Below, piece by piece: positions 7,147 to 32,412 of a DNA stretch of 32,412 nt. This DNA comes from a virus. A program made the position numbers and the translations under genes. A model generated the notes under the pieces. That model ran no database searches. It saw only the letters and a list, made by a program, of their open reading frames with translations, and was not told where the DNA came from. Each line of letters begins with the position of its first letter. Positions within the stretch are counted from its first letter, which is position 1. The stretch is from IMG/VR virus record IMGVR_UViG_3300049914_000192, positions 1-32,412 of that record; one strand, given 5' to 3'.

Positions 7147-9318
7147 TTAATACGTTCCATACTTTGATGCAAGACCTGACGCCTTCCGAGCTACTTCTTC
7201 TCTCAGCTGAGAGTCGGTGAGCTTCCCCGGAACGGGAGCCGCTGCAGCAGGTACGGGAGAGGTGGAAGGTGCTGTTTCTTCCACAGGAACGATCCCCGAA
7301 GGGTAAGACTTTCCGGTGATGAATCCCCAGACACTCTGGAACCAGGCCTTGTTTACAAGGGTGACCTGGGGGAGATCCCCGATATCCGACCAACCCACAA
7401 CGCCTGCACTCCTGGCCAAGCTGTTCATCCGGTTCTTCTGATCGTTGTAGTTATCCACCAGGATGTTCAGGTCGGTCACGTTGGTGGTAGTCGGTACAGG
7501 ATTCCCATTCTTATCCTTAGGAAGGGATCTCATGTAGTCGACATACTTGTTGTATGCATCATTCACCGCGGTGCTGGCATCTTTCACCGGAGCGTACGAG
7601 GTGTCGAGCCCGGCAGCGACAGCCATCGCAACCGCCCGATCTTTATCGGCGAGAGCACTCTGAAGCTGGACCTTCGCCATGTCGACACCGGTCTTTGCCA
7701 CTTCCAAGTCGGCCTGAGCTCTCGCATATTCAGCCGCGATCTTCGCCCGGTCAGTTACCATCTGCTCTGGCAGGAGTTCGAGGACTTTCAGGGAAACTGC
7801 GGCATCCGCCTTAAGCTTGTTAACCGTCGCCTCGATGGCTCCCGACTCGAGGTCTCTCTGATATGCAACCTCTCCTTTCGGATCGATGTACATCATGATC
7901 GCGTGATTCACCGCTTTGTTCTGTGCCTGAACGCGCGAATACGCGAGAGCCTCTTCAGGGTTCGCCAGGGCAAGCTCATTCGTTCCTTTCGAAGTATTGA
8001 TCTTCTGGAGCTTCGCCGAGTAGCTCTGAGCGAGAGCGCGATCCTTACCACTCATATCCGGCGTGATCGTCCCTGCCAGATTCGCGCTCGCTTTCGCTGC
8101 ATCACCGGAGGTTTTGATCTCCGAAACTGGATTCGTCTTTACAACATCTTGTACGGTCTGAGGAGTCAAAGAAACCGCAGCTCCCGCGGTTTTCTGGCTC
8201 GCCATGAAGGTCTCGTATTTTCCAGGGTTCACCGCGATCAGTTTCTTATCTCGACCTGAGGCCTTGGCGTCAGCATAGCTCATCCCCTTCCAGGATCCGA
8301 TCTTCGGATCGCTCTGCATGTAGTTCCAGAAAGCCTCGTCACTTCCGCCAGCGGCCGCAGGTGCGGTCGCTCCACGCGATGTTACACTCCCGCCCGGGGT
8401 GACCACAACCTGCTGGTTCACAGGTTGCTGGAGGTTCGCGTGAACGGGTCCTGCAGCTTGCTGTTCGGGAGTCAGGTTGTTGAAGTTCTGGAAGCTCGGA
8501 GCGTTCGTCTTTCTAGCAGCATCAACCGTAGAAATAGCCTGCGTGTAAGTAGCTTTATCCTTCTGCACCTGGGCTTTCTGTTCCGGGGTCAGTCTTGCAT
8601 CAGCAAGAAGCTTGTCTGCAATCCCGGAAGTGAAGTACATCATCCGGGGCTTGCCGACTTCTCCTTGGTCTTCCGGAGAGATTCCAAGTTTCCCCAGGAG
8701 GTCTTTGTACGATCCCCCAAGAGGCACGTTCGGAGAAAGCCCCATGTTAAAGGCGTACATCGCCGCTGACTGGGCTTCTTTCCCGTAATCTCCCCGAACC
8801 GTTTTGTCCCACTCGTTGAGGTTAAGAGCCTCTCCTCCAGAGGGAGTCGAAGCTGCAGGAGCGGCAGCGCCTGCGGAAGGAACCTGCGAAGCCGAAGGAC
8901 CCGAAGCTCCCTGGTCGGCGGCAGAAGGAGTTTTCCCAACGAGCTTGTAAAGGGAATCGCTAAAAGCCTTCGATCCTTCTTCCCAATTCTGCGCATCGCT
9001 CGAGAGAAACGCAACCGTTTCCTTCGCGAGTTTTGAATCCATCTCGATCGTCTCGAGAAAGTTCTGATAATACTCCGGCGTGTCCTCGGCAATCTTCTTG
9101 ATTCCAAGATACTCCTTCCCTGGTCCTCCGCCTTCCCTCTCGGCTCGAAGAAGAAACTCGTTAACCGTATTCTTGATCTTCTCAACCTTGTTGAGCCGAT
9201 TCTGCTCCGTCGCAAACTGCCCGAACTGCGCGAGCTGGTTCATCCCGCCCATGAACCCAGTCATCGCGTTCTGGCTCTGCTCGGAACCGGTCGGTCCTAC
9301 AAACTGAGCGGTTGCCAT
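7147..9318 (-). CDS. Second ejection-type internal virion protein, 723 aa
   Basis: I place the start at the ATG at 9318 (MATAQFVGPTGSEQ), preceded by AGGGAG. The open frame runs 59 codons further upstream, but that part lies inside the previous gene and looks non-coding. The protein has an N-terminal helical part with phage-structural character (FMGGMNQLAQFGQFATEQN), a low-complexity Ala/Ser/Pro linker at about residues 140-165, and long Ala/Lys/Gln-rich helices. A second Pro/Ala/Val linker comes near the C-terminus (ETAPSTSPVPAAAAPVPG), before a short end (ARKASGLASKYGTY). Such alternating helices and linkers are common in internal virion proteins. It sits between the 235-aa and 1860-aa proteins, a small-medium-large order reminiscent of podovirus ejection proteins. 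No enzymatic motif seen. Confidence 0.7.
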   Translation of the reverse strand: MATAQFVGPTGSEQSQNAMTGFMGGMNQLAQFGQFATEQNRLNKVEKIKNTVNEFLLRAEREGGGPGKEYLGIKKIAEDTPEYYQNFLETIEMDSKLAKETVAFLSSDAQNWEEGSKAFSDSLYKLVGKTPSAADQGASGPSASQVPSAGAAAPAASTPSGGEALNLNEWDKTVRGDYGKEAQSAAMYAFNMGLSPNVPLGGSYKDLLGKLGISPEDQGEVGKPRMMYFTSGIADKLLADARLTPEQKAQVQKDKATYTQAISTVDAARKTNAPSFQNFNNLTPEQQAAGPVHANLQQPVNQQVVVTPGGSVTSRGATAPAAAGGSDEAFWNYMQSDPKIGSWKGMSYADAKASGRDKKLIAVNPGKYETFMASQKTAGAAVSLTPQTVQDVVKTNPVSEIKTSGDAAKASANLAGTITPDMSGKDRALAQSYSAKLQKINTSKGTNELALANPEEALAYSRVQAQNKAVNHAIMMYIDPKGEVAYQRDLESGAIEATVNKLKADAAVSLKVLELLPEQMVTDRAKIAAEYARAQADLEVAKTGVDMAKVQLQSALADKDRAVAMAVAAGLDTSYAPVKDASTAVNDAYNKYVDYMRSLPKDKNGNPVPTTTNVTDLNILVDNYNDQKNRMNSLARSAGVVGWSDIGDLPQVTLVNKAWFQSVWGFITGKSYPSGIVPVEETAPSTSPVPAAAAPVPGKLTDSQLREEVARKASGLASKYGTY

Positions 9319-9319
9319 C

Positions 9320-10027
9320 TTAAGCTCCCTTTCCGAACATCCCGGGGAAAGCTGTTCCAAGCGAACCAAGCGCGCCCGCCGCACTTCCAGCCCCACCGAG
9401 AAGCGCGAGCATCTGGTCAAAGGGGCTCTTACCTTGCGAGAACATCGGTACGGCCGCTCCCGCGAGGTTCCCAGCGTTAAGACCATACAACCCAAAGAGG
9501 TTCTGCAAGCCCTGACCTTGTGCTCCCGCGTACTGGTTCAGAGTATTCCCATAGAGGTTATTAAGCAACCCAAAGTTCTCTGAAGCGATCTTCCCGCTAA
9601 GATCTCCCATACTCTGCTGCATGGCCTGGTTCCCTGCGAGCATGTTGGCGCCAGAATACTTCGAGCCAAGACCTGCAAACATCGAGGCTGCGTCGTTGAT
9701 GCCCTTCTGTCCGAGTTGCTGCGCTCGCCCCGTTTCGGCTTCACTCGCGCTTCGAGTTAAACCCTGAAGCGATGGAGCCGTCGACAGGAACTGGTTCATA
9801 AACCCGCCCTGGCTCATCGGGTTCATGTATTGCGAGAGAAGCCCAGAAGAGCCTCCACCCCCGAACAACATCTGCATGAGCATGTTTTGTTCGTTCCCGG
9901 TTTGCTGCATCCAACCCGGTGCGTAAGGGTTTAACTGGTTTACCGGTTGCCTGAAGAAGCTCCCCTGTAGCCCTGCTCCATGCTGAGGGTCTGTTGCTGG
10001 GAGAGTAAAATCCCATCCTGTTGGCAT
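9320..10027 (-). CDS. Small Gly/Gln-rich ejection-type virion protein, 235 aa
   Basis: ATG at 10027 with AAGGAGA upstream. The protein is strikingly rich in Gly, Gln, Ala, Met and Leu with few charges (MLMQMLFGGGGSSG, NLYGNTLNQYAGAQGQG). It ends in a hydrophobic Gly/Ala segment (LLGGAGSAAGALGSLG) that could insert in or cross a membrane. This composition is typical of small phage internal virion or DNA-ejection proteins, which form a conduit through the cell envelope. It follows the tail nozzle gene and precedes two larger putative ejection proteins. Its stop is two bases from the next start codon. The role is inferred from composition and context, not from a recognised family signature. Confidence 0.7.
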   Translation of the reverse strand: MPTGWDFTLPATDPQHGAGLQGSFFRQPVNQLNPYAPGWMQQTGNEQNMLMQMLFGGGGSSGLLSQYMNPMSQGGFMNQFLSTAPSLQGLTRSASEAETGRAQQLGQKGINDAASMFAGLGSKYSGANMLAGNQAMQQSMGDLSGKIASENFGLLNNLYGNTLNQYAGAQGQGLQNLFGLYGLNAGNLAGAAVPMFSQGKSPFDQMLALLGGAGSAAGALGSLGTAFPGMFGKGA

Positions 10028-22668: not shown

Positions 22669-23500
22669 GCTGCGGGCCGGAGGCCCGCCTCTCTACGAGA
22701 ACCTCGACCGGCACTCCGAGCTGGTTTGCTTTTTTTCTCAGAGTTTCAAGCTCACTCTTCGGGATCATGATTCTCTTCAAACCCGAAGACGGTAGAACCG
22801 AAGATCCACCTTCTGCGACTGGAGACTTGCGGGTCTGCGGTTGAGCTGAAGGTTTCACTTTTTCTTTCTCTTCCATCCTCATCTCGATGATCTCGTCAAC
22901 ATGGTCGCTCTTAATCTTGTCGAAAACCGCCTTCAGGACCTGGGGGTTCTTCTGTTGTGTAGGGGTGAGAGTTTTCAAGAGCTTTCGAACTTCAGGTTCG
23001 AACTTCCTGAAAATCGGTCCGTCCTTCTCATCGTTCTTCATCCGAAATTCGGCGTTATTAAAAGCATCCTCCATGATGCTTCCCAGGATCGGACCTACTT
23101 CAGTTTCCACGATCTTCCTCGCCTGCCTGTCTATCGCCTTCTTCAAAACTCCATACGGATCATCTTTAAAGATCTCCTCGTTGACCCTCTTCCCGAAGAC
23201 CTCCTCGCTCTCGCCTTCTTCTTTCGGAGGGGCTGAAATCGGCGCCTCGCTTCGATTCTTCAGCTCATCCCGGAGCATGTTAAACCCTGCGAGGATCGCG
23301 TCGGTATTGTCGCTTTTCTTCCCCGGTTCTCCTTCCTCGGCTTCTTCAGTCTCAGCTTCGGTTTCGGTAACTTCGATCTCCGAAGAAGGAATGGTCTTCA
23401 GATTATCATCCGAAGATGCTTCTTCTCTGTTCTGTTCCAGAGTCACCTCTTCCATCTCCTCGTCAGCCTTCGGCTGACCTTCAGCTTTCTTCTTTGCCAT
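22658..23500 (-). CDS. Scaffolding protein (280 aa)
   Basis: ATG at 23500 (MAKKKAEGQPKADEEM) with AAGGAGAAG upstream. The protein is Glu/Lys-rich with a long acidic, disordered N-terminal half (EVTETEAETEEAEEGEPGKKSDNTDA). It then has predicted helices (NAEFRMKNDEKDGPIFRKFEPEVRKLL) and a basic C-terminal part (MIPKSELETLRKKANQLGVPVEVLVERR), typical of scaffold proteins that dock capsid subunits through a charged C-terminal helix. It lies between portal-associated and capsid genes. The final residues arise from palindromic DNA (22652-22688). The role is inferred from composition and position. Confidence 0.7.
   Translation of the reverse strand: MAKKKAEGQPKADEEMEEVTLEQNREEASSDDNLKTIPSSEIEVTETEAETEEAEEGEPGKKSDNTDAILAGFNMLRDELKNRSEAPISAPPKEEGESEEVFGKRVNEEIFKDDPYGVLKKAIDRQARKIVETEVGPILGSIMEDAFNNAEFRMKNDEKDGPIFRKFEPEVRKLLKTLTPTQQKNPQVLKAVFDKIKSDHVDEIIEMRMEEKEKVKPSAQPQTRKSPVAEGGSSVLPSSGLKRIMIPKSELETLRKKANQLGVPVEVLVERRASGPQRGA
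22672..22688. repeat. Palindrome inside the scaffold 3' end
   Basis: GCGGGCC (22672-22678), GGA, GGCCCGC (22682-22688). It encodes part of the C-terminal tail (RRASGPQ). Its arms match those at 12140-12158, which have the same GGGCC/GGCCC core. The adjacent palindrome at 22652-22668 lies 3 bases away. Confidence 0.6.
23462..23478. repeat. Palindrome in the scaffold gene start region
   Basis: GTCAGCC (23462-23468), TTC, GGCTGAC (23472-23478). It lies within codons of about 8-13 of the scaffold gene. A perfect 7-bp stem with a 3-base loop could fold on the message just after initiation. Confidence 0.5.
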
Positions 23501-25700: not shown

Positions 25701-27443
25701 TCAGTATCCGGTGAGGTTACTAACAAACCTCTCGTCTCTTCTTTCACTCTCTCGAAGTCTTATTTCTTCATCTTCATCCGGAGGGGGGTTTGCATCGCTA
25801 AGCGCTTTCTCGCTCGCATCGAGAAGATCTTTCCGCCACTTCGACTGGGGGAAGACTTTCAGTTCCTGCTTAAGTTCGATGTCCTCGCCCCAAACCGCGT
25901 AGATCTTGCCCTTTGCGAGAAGAGGTTGCAGCTTCATTCGGATTCTCGCATCTTTATCCCCACCCGCAGGAACCGGCTTGAAGTAAAGAGGAAAGTCCTG
26001 AAGGAGCGCTTCTTTCTGCAAGATCGGCGCGAGCACTTTTTGCATCGCCGCAGCTTCCACGATGCAGCGTGAGACAGAACCGGAAAACTTCCTCGCCCCT
26101 TCGAAGACATACCCCATCCATCTTATCGGATCGAAGTAGCCGACCTTTCTCCAGAGAAGAACGCAGTTCCAGGAAGCATCCACGGCCCAGATGCAGATCG
26201 CCGTCCTGGAGGTCTTTGCCGAGATATCCCGATCTGTGCTGGCAGGATCTATTGCCATGACCACGTCAAAGGCCGACAGCGGCTTCGCCGCTGCCGGCTC
26301 GTCAAAGTTTGGATCTCCTTCGAGGAGGATCGAGTATCTTCCGCTCTTCTCATCCCACTCAAGTGAAGCGGGTTTGATCTTGAAATCGCTGAACTCGACG
26401 AGACCCGTCTTCGCTGGTCGATTCATACTTTGAGTCATCGCTCCCCAGTAATCATCTTCCATTTGGTTCGAGAGATCTTTGCTCGTGAGCACTTCGGGGC
26501 AGACTTCAACTCCATCTTCGATCCCGAGGCGATTGTACACAACCCAGGTTCCATCCTTCTTCTCCTCGAACTCGTCACAAACATAACCGAGAAAGAGCTT
26601 CGCATCTTCGACGATGAGCGCGCTAGGGTCATCTATGCTGAATCTCGTCATCGGAAAGATGATCCTGCTTCTACGCTGTGAGCGCAGGAGCGCTCTTCGG
26701 TTTGTCTTGAACCACTGAAGCTTGCTCATCATGTTTAAGTTACCCATGTGTTCGACGTCCAGATCGTCCAGTCCGGCGAGATCGTCAGGGTTGAAGAGGG
26801 TGAAATGTAAACCTTCCGATGCGGCCCCGACACCGATGGCATACACAGAAGGTTCAGTATAGTTTCTGCTTCGTCCGGGGAAAACGATCTCGCTGTCGTT
26901 CCAACGCTTTGCGTCCTTGAGGGGTACACACTCAGGGTAACAGGCTCGGTATAGCTCATTTTTCTCAACACTCACTTTGATGACTCCGCGAAACGCGGCG
27001 GCTTTCGTTGCGGTCGCATTCGCGATCGCGATGCACTCGTTCTGGTTTCGGGTCAGTTCCCAATGATCCGAGCCGTGGGTCATGATGGTTGATTTTAAGA
27101 ACCCTCTCGGGAGGAGGATTGCTGCTCTCGAACCCGGAGCCATACAGTGCTCCGACTGTCTGAAGTTACACATCTCCCGATGGAGGTCTTCGTTGAGTTC
27201 ATCATACGGACCTGCCGAGCCGAGGATGAATTTGAGGAAAAACCATAAGGAAACGAAGCCGAGTTGGCGCAAGAGTGTGATGAAAGCTGAAGTGTCGGGA
27301 AAATTCCTGGAGGAAACCTCCGAAATGAGCTGCTTGACGATCAACTGAGCGCTTGAAACGTTCTCCTTCGAGAAAAGAGGAGCTTTTTCGTGCTCGAGGA
27401 TGTAAAAATCAGGTCCGGGGAGAGGTCTTCGCTCTTCGTTCAT
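25701..27443 (-). CDS. terL: Terminase large subunit (580 aa)
   Basis: ATG at 27443 overlaps the small terminase stop (ATGA). An N-terminal ATPase contains PRGFLKST at about residues 112-119 as a modified Walker A (P-loop Lys117). A Walker B-like hydrophobic run ending in FNPDD is at about 216-221. The C-terminal RNase H-like nuclease has MAIDPAS (Asp399) as first metal ligand, IVEAAA (Glu463) as second, and a likely Asp near DLLDASEKAL as third. The protein packages DNA into proheads and cuts concatemers. Size and position beside portal and small subunit agree with this. Confidence 0.88.
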   Translation of the reverse strand: MNEERRPLPGPDFYILEHEKAPLFSKENVSSAQLIVKQLISEVSSRNFPDTSAFITLLRQLGFVSLWFFLKFILGSAGPYDELNEDLHREMCNFRQSEHCMAPGSRAAILLPRGFLKSTIMTHGSDHWELTRNQNECIAIANATATKAAAFRGVIKVSVEKNELYRACYPECVPLKDAKRWNDSEIVFPGRSRNYTEPSVYAIGVGAASEGLHFTLFNPDDLAGLDDLDVEHMGNLNMMSKLQWFKTNRRALLRSQRRSRIIFPMTRFSIDDPSALIVEDAKLFLGYVCDEFEEKKDGTWVVYNRLGIEDGVEVCPEVLTSKDLSNQMEDDYWGAMTQSMNRPAKTGLVEFSDFKIKPASLEWDEKSGRYSILLEGDPNFDEPAAAKPLSAFDVVMAIDPASTDRDISAKTSRTAICIWAVDASWNCVLLWRKVGYFDPIRWMGYVFEGARKFSGSVSRCIVEAAAMQKVLAPILQKEALLQDFPLYFKPVPAGGDKDARIRMKLQPLLAKGKIYAVWGEDIELKQELKVFPQSKWRKDLLDASEKALSDANPPPDEDEEIRLRESERRDERFVSNLTGY

Positions 27444-28314: not shown

Positions 28315-28557
28315 CTACTCACCCTTTTCTGAAAGCTCGCTTGCATGTTCGGCGAGGAAAGAAGTGATCGTTTCCGCCATGCCGAGGATGCGCGGCCATT
28401 CTGAAGCGTAGAACGTCACGGGAAAGCGGCGAATACCGTAAAGCGATACGCCACCTTTTGCGCTCACCTTAAGCGAGAGTGTGCTCCTGTGCGCGAGCTT
28501 CGCCTTAAGCGCCGCATTCTCCGCAAGGACCTGTGCCATCGTTAGTGTGGTCGCCAT
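28315..28557 (-). CDS. Conserved phage protein, 'VSLYGIRRFPVTFYASEW' family (80 aa)
   Basis: I place the start at the ATG at 28557 (MATTLTMAQVLAEN), after AGGAG; the open frame runs 19 codons further upstream without a ribosome site. A helical N-terminal part (AQVLAENAALKAKL) is followed by LKVSAKGGVSLYGIRRFPVTFYASEWPRIL. This pattern is shared by many phage, and some large-virus, small proteins (KGalSVYGLgRFPVTLYxeQW), whose function is not known. The C-terminus is helical (MAETITSFLAEHASEL). It is the first gene of the mini-operon placed between the intergenic array and the late promoter. Function unknown. Confidence 0.75.
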   Translation of the reverse strand: MATTLTMAQVLAENAALKAKLAHRSTLSLKVSAKGGVSLYGIRRFPVTFYASEWPRILGMAETITSFLAEHASELSEKGE

Positions 28558-28795: not shown

Positions 28796-28898
28796 GGGCG
28801 TGTTTTCGAGGCTCGGGAGGTAAAATCATACGCCAAAGGGCCCGAAAACGCGCCCCAGACCCGTTTTGAGGGCTTCTGGGGCAGTTCTGGGATGCCCC
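28796..28898. repeat. Chain of three overlapping inverted repeats
   Basis: Stem 1: 28796-28808 with 28843-28855 (13 pairs, one G-U if transcribed rightward). Stem 2: 28852-28859 with 28875-28882 (8 bp), with an inner 3-bp stem. Stem 3: 28878-28883 with 28893-28898 (6 bp). Stem 1 and stem 2 share bases 28852-28855; stem 2 and stem 3 share bases 28878-28882. So they cannot all form together. Confidence 0.6.
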
Positions 28899-28935
28899 GA
28901 ATCCGAAACAATCAGAGATTTTCCAAACAACTAAC

Positions 28936-28950
28936 GTACTACTGTAGTAC
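28936..28950. repeat. GTACTAC array, outer palindrome P1
   Basis: GTACTAC (28936-28942), T, GTAGTAC (28944-28950). Perfect 15-base palindrome with 7-bp arms. It is an inverted copy of P2 over 17 bases. Confidence 0.85.
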
Positions 28951-28978
28951 ATGATTAGTACACGATTGATTTCATCTA

Positions 28979-29020
28979 ATTCTATATACTATATATAATA
29001 ATATAATAATAATAATAATA
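28979..29020. other. AT-rich tract with (AAT)n run
   Basis: Almost pure A/T, with TATATA and repeated AAT/ATA units, between P1 and the left direct pair of the array. Easy melting would suit an origin or promoter; it contains several -10-like hexamers on both strands, so none is decisive. Confidence 0.6.
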
Positions 29021-29038
29021 GTAGTACATAGTAGTACA
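29019..29038. repeat. GTACTAC array, left direct pair D
   Basis: GTAGTAC at 29021-29027 and 29031-29037, 10 bases apart in the same orientation. The 20 bases are the exact reverse complement of 29083-29102. Confidence 0.85.
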
Positions 29039-29082
29039 GTCCCTCGAAGAAGAGGATGATGAAATTGAAAAGGGTGTCATCG

Positions 29083-29102
29083 TGTACTACTATGTACTAC
29101 TA
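29083..29102. repeat. GTACTAC array, right direct pair D'
   Basis: GTACTAC at 29084-29090 and 29094-29100. Perfect 20-base inverted copy of 29019-29038; 44 bases separate the arms. Confidence 0.85.
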
Positions 29103-29166
29103 ATCCTGACTAAAACACTCTATTCCTTACCCAGTAAGCACTTACACGATTTCAACCCTTACAACT

Positions 29167-29187
29167 GATGTACTACAGTAGTACATC
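29167..29187. repeat. GTACTAC array, outer palindrome P2
   Basis: GATGTACTAC (29167-29176), A, GTAGTACATC (29178-29187). Perfect palindrome with 10-bp arms. Confidence 0.85.
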
Positions 29188-29273
29188 TGTTGTATGAAAA
29201 CCTTCTGTATGTTTCACTTTCGGGGCATCGCGCCGCGAAGCGCAAGACCACCACTTCCCCCTCTTCAACCAAC

Positions 29274-29304
29274 AAAAAGAGCGCGAGTCTCCTCTCGCGC
29301 TCTT
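29274..29304 (-). terminator. Strong intrinsic terminator of the right-hand operon
   Basis: Minus strand: AAGAGCGCGAG (29304-29294), loop AGGAGA, CTCGCGCTCTT (29287-29277), with the T run TTTTT at 29278-29274. Eleven-bp stem. It lies 18 bases after the stop of the 123-aa gene. Confidence 0.85.
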
Positions 29305-29322: not shown

Positions 29323-29694
29323 CTAAGGACCAAACACCTTTAGCACCGAGAGCAGCGCAGCCCTCACAGTCCACGGGTTCGTAGTCGTCCCAGGTTTCAT
29401 CTCACGAATCACCCAGCCGACAAAGTAGTGCTTCAAGCTCTCGTAAGGTGTTCCATCCTTCGTCTCTGCCCACCACTCTCTGACCTGTCGCAGCGGCATC
29501 CACTGCCCGCCAAACATGCACCCGCTCACGGAAGCCACCCCGATAATCGGATTCTCCTCCTCATCCCAATCATGTTGGCCCCTGGTCGCGCTGACGATGA
29601 ATGAGTAAACAGAACCATCTCCCGGTTCCATCTTCACGTTCATTGCAACAGTCGGCTCCAACTCACAGTAAAACTCAAGTGTCTGTTTTTCCAC
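29323..29694 (-). CDS. Hypothetical protein (123 aa)
   Basis: GTG at 29694 (VEKQTLEFYCELEPTV), five bases after AGGAAGG. The protein is soluble, rich in Trp and acidic residues (RGQHDWDEEENPIIGVAS, QVREWWAETKDGTPYESLKHYFVGW). It ends in a helical segment (WTVRAALLSVLKVFGP). It is the last gene of the right-hand operon and precedes a strong terminator. No family recognised; function unknown. Confidence 0.7.
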   Translation of the reverse strand: MEKQTLEFYCELEPTVAMNVKMEPGDGSVYSFIVSATRGQHDWDEEENPIIGVASVSGCMFGGQWMPLRQVREWWAETKDGTPYESLKHYFVGWVIREMKPGTTTNPWTVRAALLSVLKVFGP

Positions 29695-29709: not shown

Positions 29710-30300
29710 CTAATGCTTATGCAGAAGAAGCGACGCAGCCTCGCCTTTCTTCCAGCAAGCCCTGCACGAGTCGCACCTTCCCTTACAGACCATCGCATCC
29801 TTCGGTGCTCGCTCATCCCCTTCGATGTAAGCAACCCCCGTAAACCCCGCAGCAGTAAGAACCGCCCTGCTTGGCATCTCAGCTCCAATCCACGCCGAGA
29901 AGAACACCCTCAGATTCTCCCTCTTCTCCCAAACATACTCCGTTCGTTTCGTGAAGACGAGGAAGCTTGTCTCAGGGAAGCACACCGCCATATCTTCCAT
30001 GCCCCTCTGATACTCCTTATTCGGTATATCTCCACTCACGTGCCACCTGAAAAACTTTGGTTTATTCTCCTCCAGCCAGTCAAGCACGCTCTCCATAAAC
30101 CCCTGCGGATCATTCATCGCGAACGCCGTGTTATCCATCCACGCCTTCACAACCGTTGTCGGGTACGCCAGTTTCCTTGCATAGCAATCTACCACGCAGG
30201 GTACCCCTTGCGGACAGGTCACAATCGGAAGAAGACTAACATTCGCCGTCTTTCCAATCTTCGTGTTTCCTACGCTCACATGCAGCCTGTCACTCAGCAT
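29710..30300 (-). CDS. GP88-like cysteine-rich phage protein (196 aa)
   Basis: I prefer the ATG at 30300 (MLSDRLHVSVGNTKIG), nine bases after GGAGG, over an in-frame TTG two codons earlier. The N-terminus shows the GP88 family pattern: GNTKIGKTANVSLLP, then C-P-x-G-x-x-C-x-x-x-C-Y-A (Cys29, Cys35, Cys39). The middle contains WHVSGDIPNKEYQRGMEDMAV and FLVFTKRTEYVWEKRENL. The C-terminus has Cys172, Cys176, Cys179 and Cys182. The clusters suggest metal or iron-sulphur binding. The activity of the family is not established to my knowledge. The start overlaps the upstream gene's end by 11 bases. Confidence 0.7.
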   Translation of the reverse strand: MLSDRLHVSVGNTKIGKTANVSLLPIVTCPQGVPCVVDCYARKLAYPTTVVKAWMDNTAFAMNDPQGFMESVLDWLEENKPKFFRWHVSGDIPNKEYQRGMEDMAVCFPETSFLVFTKRTEYVWEKRENLRVFFSAWIGAEMPSRAVLTAAGFTGVAYIEGDERAPKDAMVCKGRCDSCRACWKKGEAASLLLHKH

Positions 30301-30718
30301 TTTCAATTTCCTCCGCCTTCACACTCTCCAGCCCTCCCGAAAAGACCATCTTCATCCTCTCAAGCTCCGGCTTGTCCCAAAAGCCGCTACTTGGTACGAA
30401 GATTTCCAGGATCCACCTCGGCTTCTCATCAAAACTTCCATTCTTCTTGTTAATCAACTTCAAAACATACAACCACTCGATATCCGAATGAAACTTCATC
30501 GAGCTCTCAGGTTCGAAGCTCCCAGGATCCGTCGCACACACCCGCCCTGCCACCTTCCCAGCCCTCCCCGATTCCCAGTCCTTTGGAGCCGTCTTCCACG
30601 CTTCCAGCAAGAGAGGAATGATCCCCGTCGGGTATCCATCACAGTGATGATACAGCATCACTTCCTGCTCCCAGTCTAACCCTATAGTTTTCACCCAAAC
30701 CTGACATCGTGTGCTCAT
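30290..30718 (-). CDS. Conserved 'MSTRCQ' phage protein (142 aa)
   Basis: ATG at 30718 (MSTRCQVWVKTIG) with AGAGGAG upstream. The N-terminal MSTRCQ, the beta strand with VMLYHHCDGYPTGIIPLLLEAW, and the C-terminal LYVLKLINKK match a family of small phage and bacterial proteins with an MSTRC...HxDGYP signature. No biochemical activity is assigned. The His-Cys-Asp cluster (HHCDGYP) is a plausible active or metal site. A GC palindrome (30732-30748) precedes its ribosome site. Confidence 0.75.
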   Translation of the reverse strand: MSTRCQVWVKTIGLDWEQEVMLYHHCDGYPTGIIPLLLEAWKTAPKDWESGRAGKVAGRVCATDPGSFEPESSMKFHSDIEWLYVLKLINKKNGSFDEKPRWILEIFVPSSGFWDKPELERMKMVFSGGLESVKAEEIENAE

Positions 30719-31603: not shown

Positions 31604-31813
31604 TTAGATCCTTTCCACCGTAATTTTGAGAACTTCACCGATAAACATCCTATCCTTCCACGCTCCAACATGACGAACGCCACTCTTTTCCATCGGATCC
31701 ATCCCGGTCACCGCTCGCGACAGCGCGGTGTGAAGATTACTCGCACTCCACACACCATCAACACAATCAAAGGGTTCTCCCTTATTCCCTCTGATGGTTA
31801 TCTTGTAGTTCAC
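31604..31813 (-). CDS. Hypothetical small protein (69 aa)
   Basis: GTG at 31813 overlaps the upstream stop (GTGA, 31810-31813), eight bases after AGGAGG. The product is a compact, mostly beta protein (VNYKITIRGNKGEPFDCVDGVWSAS, FIGEVLKITVERI). It is close to, and probably coupled with, the DUF932-like gene. Function unknown. Confidence 0.65.
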   Translation of the reverse strand: MNYKITIRGNKGEPFDCVDGVWSASNLHTALSRAVTGMDPMEKSGVRHVGAWKDRMFIGEVLKITVERI

Positions 31814-32412
31814 TTCGAGACCTCCTGTACGAGAGCCAGAAGCTGTTCCTTCGCTCTGCTGGTATCCATGATACAGCGCTTGAAGTGAGTCTCCGGGGTG
31901 CGATACGCCCTGAGATGATCCAGATACTCACTCCCCGCACAGTACAGTCCATAAGCCGTCCTACGGTGAGCTTCGCTCACGCTCGCGCTGTCATTCAGGG
32001 TATGAATGACCTGCAAGCGCGCTTCCTGGATGTTAATCTTCACCCTTTCAGAAGTGATCGCCTCCGGAGGAGCAGGTATGAACGCCTCCGTGAAGAGCTT
32101 GACCTGCTCAAAGGTCACGCTTAACACCGCAAGATCCTCAGCAATCTGGCAAAACTCGGAGAACTCCTTCCGAGCGAGACCGAGCGCACTCCTTGCGAAC
32201 TCTATGCGATCCTTCACATTCTTCGTGTGTCGGAAGGTGTAGTTAAGCCCCGTTCTCGCAGCCTCGCTCATCCCCGAGGACATGGTGTTCTCACAAACGG
32301 TCCGAATCGAAGTAACAAAAGCTTTCGCAGCTCCTGTTCCATCATGCGTCGTACTGACATTCACAAACGGCAGGATCGTCGAGTTATCACCCTTGATGGT
32401 TATCGGTTCGTC
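31810..32412 (-). CDS. DUF932-like phage/plasmid protein, C-terminal part (5' end outside window)
   Basis: The frame is open to the window edge (603 bases), so the N-terminus is missing. The segment reading FVNVSTTHDGTGAAKAF, SIRTVCENTM, GLNYTFRHTKNVKDRIEFARSALGLARKEF is the signature of the DUF932 / phage-plasmid-like family. The typical THDGTGA...TSIRVVCxNT...RHTxNVxDRLEEA pattern is clear. The family is common in phages and plasmids, and its function is not settled. The C-terminal approximately 80 residues are helical. Because the family is about 300-350 residues, roughly a third to a half is missing here. Confidence 0.8.
   Translation of the reverse strand, partial: DEPITIKGDNSTILPFVNVSTTHDGTGAAKAFVTSIRTVCENTMSSGMSEAARTGLNYTFRHTKNVKDRIEFARSALGLARKEFSEFCQIAEDLAVLSVTFEQVKLFTEAFIPAPPEAITSERVKINIQEARLQVIHTLNDSASVSEAHRRTAYGLYCAGSEYLDHLRAYRTPETHFKRCIMDTSRAKEQLLALVQEVSK

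Follow-up and report, generated by a model that had tools for sequence, protein, structure and literature searches.

The linear IMG/VR record IMGVR_UViG_3300049914_000192 (32,412 bases; its full length is hereafter called the window) derives from a podovirus-like phage and carries, in non-coding DNA, a 339-bp imperfect inverted repeat holding eight exact GTACTAC/GTAGTAC sites. This element is interpreted as an iteron-type replication origin of the phage, with a probability of roughly 0.68. An earlier note on this DNA had offered an origin, a partition or packaging locus, and a looping operator as possible roles. The origin is favoured here because mirrored arrays recur upstream of the terminase in related viruses, around the most AT-rich tract and with DnaA boxes in several relatives; partition by ParB is disfavoured, and packaging and transcription control are retained as possible roles. 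To our knowledge, no origin is known for most environmental phages, because origin sequences lack conservation. A layout and a short box that persist although the iterons mostly differ would thus provide a route to finding origins across an uncultured phage group.

Geometry of the mirrored array

The eight sites lie within 249 bp and form four groups, i.e., the palindrome P1, the direct pair D, the inverted direct pair D′, and the palindrome P2, at the coordinates and in the order reported before (Table 1). The GTACTAC heptamer occurs ten times in the whole window, eight of them in the array (dinucleotide shuffles: mean 0.72, maximum 3). D and D′ were verified as exact 20-base reverse complements, and P1 and P2 as inverted copies across 17 bases. 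Centre-to-centre distances, given in the earlier note as 86, 63, and 85 bases, were measured at about 85.5, 64, and 84.5 bp and thus held approximately, not as exact figures. The central spacing is close to six helical turns as claimed, and all three cluster spacings correspond to about 8, 6, and 8 turns, with a within-pair spacing of 10 bp. Multiple copies of a short site in non-coding DNA, an adjacent AT-rich region (previously seen between P1 and D and confirmed here), and helical phasing, as expected of iterons, were therefore all found at this locus.

The symmetry of the array, and the statement that only its sites are mirrored, stood in part. The array is mirrored, with D/D′ lying one base off the axis of P1/P2 (coordinate sums 58121 vs 58120), and the inner spacers are indeed unmirrored (14/57 in the P1/P2 register). 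Outside P1 and P2, however, a further 44 bp are mirrored in the same register (32/44), a value equalled by none of 200,000 random pairs. Mirroring ends sharply at 28891/29229, beyond which 11 of 51 positions agree (chance level). Because the mirror extends beyond the array limits given earlier, the element is described here as a 339-bp imperfect inverted repeat with arms of 70 nt each (28891-28960 and 29160-29229; 77% complementary). Among the spaced inverted repeats of the genome it ranks first (61.1 bits, runner-up 21.7 bits). Its interior is asymmetric, with the AT tract in one arm and two facing copies of a box shared with relatives in the other (29120-29144). A stem-loop formed by D and D′ (DNA fold z = -6.5) was dropped as a candidate structure because the mirrored arms of the relatives mostly lie ~100-285 bp apart.

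Table 1 Features of the mirrored element and its surroundings (window coordinates)
Feature	Position	Strand	Remarks
Entire mirrored element (imperfect inverted repeat of 339 bp; putative origin)	28891..29229		
Palindrome P1, GTACTACTGTAGTAC	28936..28950		
Degenerate extra half-site TTAGTAC beside P1	28955..28961	-	11 bp from preceding half-site; 11-nt tandem repeat
AT-rich tract, proposed DNA unwinding element	28974..29021		92% AT over 48 bp; holds the window's most AT-rich 45 bp
Direct pair D, GTAGTAC twice at 10-bp spacing	29019..29038	-	
Direct pair D′	29083..29102	+	exact reverse complement of D
Near match of shared box, TAAGGAATAG	29120..29129	-	
Shared box TAAGCACTTA, matches TAAG(C/G)ANTTA	29135..29144	+	only exact copy in the 32-kb window
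Palindrome P2, GATGTACTACAGTAGTACATC	29167..29187		
Terminase large subunit	25701..27443	-	phrog_38, E 9.6e-45; query for finding relatives
First gene downstream on late strand, 80 aa	28315..28557	-	function unassigned
Terminator-like hairpin	29277..29304	-	ends upstream minus-strand operon

Recurrence of the layout in related viruses

The array and late region had no DNA match in the phage collection searched, and searches of bacterial and archaeal genomes returned no relatives. The palindrome GTACTACNGTAGTAC was found at 73 loci in IMG/VR, none with the array, and the pair GTAGTACATAGTAGTAC at 13 loci, which is about the chance expectation, none with the mirrored set. Searches with the terminase, in turn, yielded about 40 distant viral contigs, many of which stop short of the equivalent place. 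Most of those reaching it carry mirrored arrays upstream of the terminase operon, usually with different iterons. Common to these relatives are inverted clusters of 8-11-bp repeats (within-cluster spacing likewise 8-11 bp) around a very AT-rich tract and the box TAAG(C/G)ANTTA. The repeated motifs include ATTCGCA (L079), CATTCGC (L092), AATTACA (L113), CTTAGAA (L121), AAAATGCA (L088, L089, and vir526), and an 11-bp CTAGTACTTTT-type unit (L130). Near sisters by terminase have different motifs (L092 vs L133; L130 vs L134), and the core ATTCGC is common to L079 and L092. The circular 44-kb virus record vir526 (BK063670, L076) encodes a terminase 33% identical to that of the window. Between L088 and L089, 80 of 1126 alignment columns differ, none of them inside an iteron. 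Loss of site order and spacing next to conserved flanking genes, named in the earlier note as the outcome that would speak against a functional array, was thus half observed: exact sequence and spacing are lost, and the mirrored layout is kept.

Recurrence was assessed by two tests. In the strict test, a 7-mer had to occur twice 8-12 bp apart together with its inverse within 400 bp. Upstream of the terminase, the window and 5 of 27 relatives passed, compared with no locus in 258 kb downstream, none of 100 shuffled sets, and 1 of 86 unrelated viral loci; no strict mirrored pairs were found in more distant annotated (capsid) relatives. The sole unrelated locus passing (L034:3812-4127) has CCGGAAC units ~10 bp apart and is possibly another mirrored origin. 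The second test was independent of any motif and recorded the position of each locus's best spaced inverted repeat, which fell at the array region in 13 of 18 loci. Scores reached 139 bits in L187 (G025), 85 in G030, 55 in L088, and 43 in L130, with small margins in L079, L121, L127, and L134. The arms of L187 are 201 nt each, and in both L187 and G030 diverged spacers separate the conserved blocks.

In 10 of 15 loci, the 45-bp stretch richest in AT was located within the array region. The shared box was first seen as TAAGGARTTAG and afterwards generalised to TAAG(C/G)ANTTA. Array regions totalling 9.8 kb contained 18 copies vs 6 in 252 kb elsewhere, and DnaA-box matches reached 2.6/kb vs 0.045/kb (clusters in L082, L115, L130, and L134); the array regions were partly drawn by eye, and these enrichment ratios are therefore not blind. 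In unrelated viral loci the box was found at 0.018/kb and without clusters. Allowing one mismatch, it was clustered in G030 (3 within 0.5 kb), G025 (5 within 0.6 kb), and G026 (3 within 1 kb), all of them fetched after the first form of the box had been defined. Boxes were essentially absent around the DUF3987 genes of the relatives, and the box therefore does not serve the group as a general promoter. In unsupervised word counts, TAAGGAATTA and words resembling TTATGCACA ranked among those shared most widely, barely above shuffled sets. Methanomicrobiales are named as host in the vir526 record. Clusters of bacterial DnaA boxes nevertheless occur at the array in several relatives with the same terminase; possible explanations are that the group includes viruses of both bacteria and archaea, or that the host label is wrong.

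A recombination site, either an attP equipped with arm sites or an ancient transposable element whose ends are inverted, was also considered, as the 70-nt inverted arms look like terminal inverted repeats and attP carries short arm-type repeats. We regard it as very improbable: no integrase (PF00589) or resolvase (PF00239) was found in the window, which may be incomplete, and nine relatives, the borders at 28891/29229 show no target-site duplication, and searches of viral contigs did not turn up the array a second time. Moreover, the layout recurs at the same place in different letters, unlike a mobile element.

Some further observations were made at these loci. The terminase genes at L083:180-1400 and G027 (contig of L155):1580-4423 seem to be interrupted in frame close to the Walker A motif (about residue 117) by insertions that are probably inteins. 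Five 13-bp tandem repeats (AGGTTGATA...) lie upstream of the terminase at L089:1989-2050, separate from the array, and a run of 12-bp tandem repeats lies within an early gene at L076:9378-9505 (coding sequence 9064-9591).

Proposed origin function, gene context, and alternative roles

The proposed origin would work as follows. A phage-encoded initiator, encoded off the contig, would bind the GTACTAC iterons, and the mirrored clusters would orient initiator complexes oppositely around the AT tract and close to one helical face; the tract would melt next. The opposed clusters could load two helicases and thereby start bidirectional replication; if they do, symmetric bidirectional initiation could be studied on the element as a small, testable model. 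We infer that the initiator binds, the tract melts, replication starts, and helicases are loaded. A conserved replication protein probably recognises the box TAAG(C/G)ANTTA, with a DUF3987 primase/helicase and a protein with two helix-turn-helix (HTH) units as candidates.

Both candidates come from the relatives, of which those with long contigs encode PolA and the DUF3987 primase/helicase. In several lineages, the gene directly after DUF3987 encodes the two-HTH protein (~180-230 residues), whose AlphaFold2 model (mean predicted local distance difference test score 82.5) has a beta domain after two helical HTH units. A fold search with this model gave no confident solved relative (best: IstA transposase, E 0.09), and the C-terminal domain of DUF3987 gave a weak winged-helix match only (FeoC, E 0.031). 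The helicase and its two-HTH neighbour are put forward as putative array binders, the latter as a concrete candidate initiator; G025 and G026 have array features and no two-HTH gene directly after DUF3987. For the 58-aa and 80-aa products named earlier as possible binders, nothing points to either.

A partition (centromere-like) site would also be expected to hold repeated direct and inverted sites, as such loci typically do. This role is nevertheless highly unlikely, since no ParB_N domain (PF02195) was detected in ten records including near-complete relatives (ribbon-helix-helix partition proteins were not searched for).

In the window, the terminase, portal, major capsid, and tail genes are all on the minus strand, and the array sits between the terminator of the upstream operon, confirmed as a minus-strand terminator-like hairpin, and the operon leading to the terminase. 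The genes flanking the array (29323-29694 and 28315-28557) gave no functional clue, and no RNA family of Rfam was found at the locus. The late strand carries GP88-like and DUF932 genes at 29710-30306 and 31810-32412 (-); in G017 (L142) their homologues are on the strand opposite to its terminase, and this segment is thus inverted relative to the terminase between the two viruses. An ARAGORN call of tRNA-Thr at 22927-23020 (+), antisense within a structural gene, is probably spurious.

The position of the array also bears on two other roles. A repressor or activator could bind the mirrored sites cooperatively, loop the DNA, and switch the early and late operons: the array is upstream of the terminase operon and lies between divergent early and late genes in vir526 and G017, and looping repressors typically use paired, helically phased operators. 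An operator, however, needs neither a ~90% AT tract of 45 bp nor the DnaA-box clusters of the relatives, and in the window the flanking genes are co-directional and separated from the array by the terminator. Transcription control as the function of the array is hence considered unlikely, and it could coexist with origin function. Less probable still is a role in packaging, with the small terminase subunit binding a pac or cos region here. Small terminases bind repeated sites, and the large terminase gene begins ~1.5 kb downstream of the array, a distance at which packaging sites are often found; yet DnaA boxes and an AT tract are a better match for an origin, and the record is a linear fragment without defined ends at the array.

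Several observations weigh against an origin. The window has no DnaA box, and no replication genes were found in it, so that its contig is probably partial. Five of the 18 loci have no dominant mirror at the array region, and site motif, number, and spacing differ among relatives. The detrended GC-skew extremes of G017 show no close coincidence with its array; the minimum of vir526 (1425) is near its array (404-1000), a weak sign in favour of an origin that is confounded by gene direction. The drawing of array regions by eye, as described above, is counted here as well.

Comparison with known replication systems

Bacterial oriC, with sites of opposite orientation around an unwinding element, resembles the present element in its oppositely oriented initiator arrays (work cited in PMC5043065). 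It differs from the window in its DnaA boxes. Archaeal origins have inverted origin recognition box (ORB) sites around an unwinding element; the ORB-like patterns TTCCANTGGAA and TTTACACTTGAAA are absent from the window and 15 relatives. The origin of the phage satellite PLE (RepA_N) is likewise non-coding, with direct and inverted repeats needed for replication (PMC7145576). A RepA_N protein was neither seen nor sought here. In phage P4, the ori carries short iterons of either orientation, to which the all-in-one alpha primase-helicase binds through its winged-helix domain; no alpha protein was seen here, and DUF3987 would be its analogue.

In lambda ori and iteron plasmids, an initiator binds iterons, the AT region melts, and a helicase is loaded, with repeats that are one-sided or direct (PMC5043065, PMC7466680). 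Lambda ori shares with the element repeated initiator sites with dyad symmetry beside a ~40-bp AT-rich tract (PMC5043065, PMC7466680). Its four 19-bp iterons, however, lie on one side of the AT tract and inside the O gene, whereas in the window opposed clusters of 7-bp sites lie outside coding sequence, and an O-like protein was not seen. Iteron plasmids (P1, RK2, R6K, pSC101) are alike in iterons, AT tract, and helical phasing, and in the DnaA boxes of some relatives (PMC5043065). In the present group, by contrast, the clusters are inverted around a centre, the units are 8-11 bp, and no Rep gene is adjacent. The principle of iterons beside an AT tract is already known; for a kept mirrored layout with changing iterons and a TAAG box, no precedent was found in the open-access literature searched. 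It is conceivable, though rather doubtful, that these elements form a distinct origin class, in which a mirror element of ~300-560 bp with opposed iteron clusters would load two helicases head-to-head, the box TAAG(C/G)ANTTA would be read by a conserved replication protein, and the fast-changing iterons would serve as a replicon identity code.
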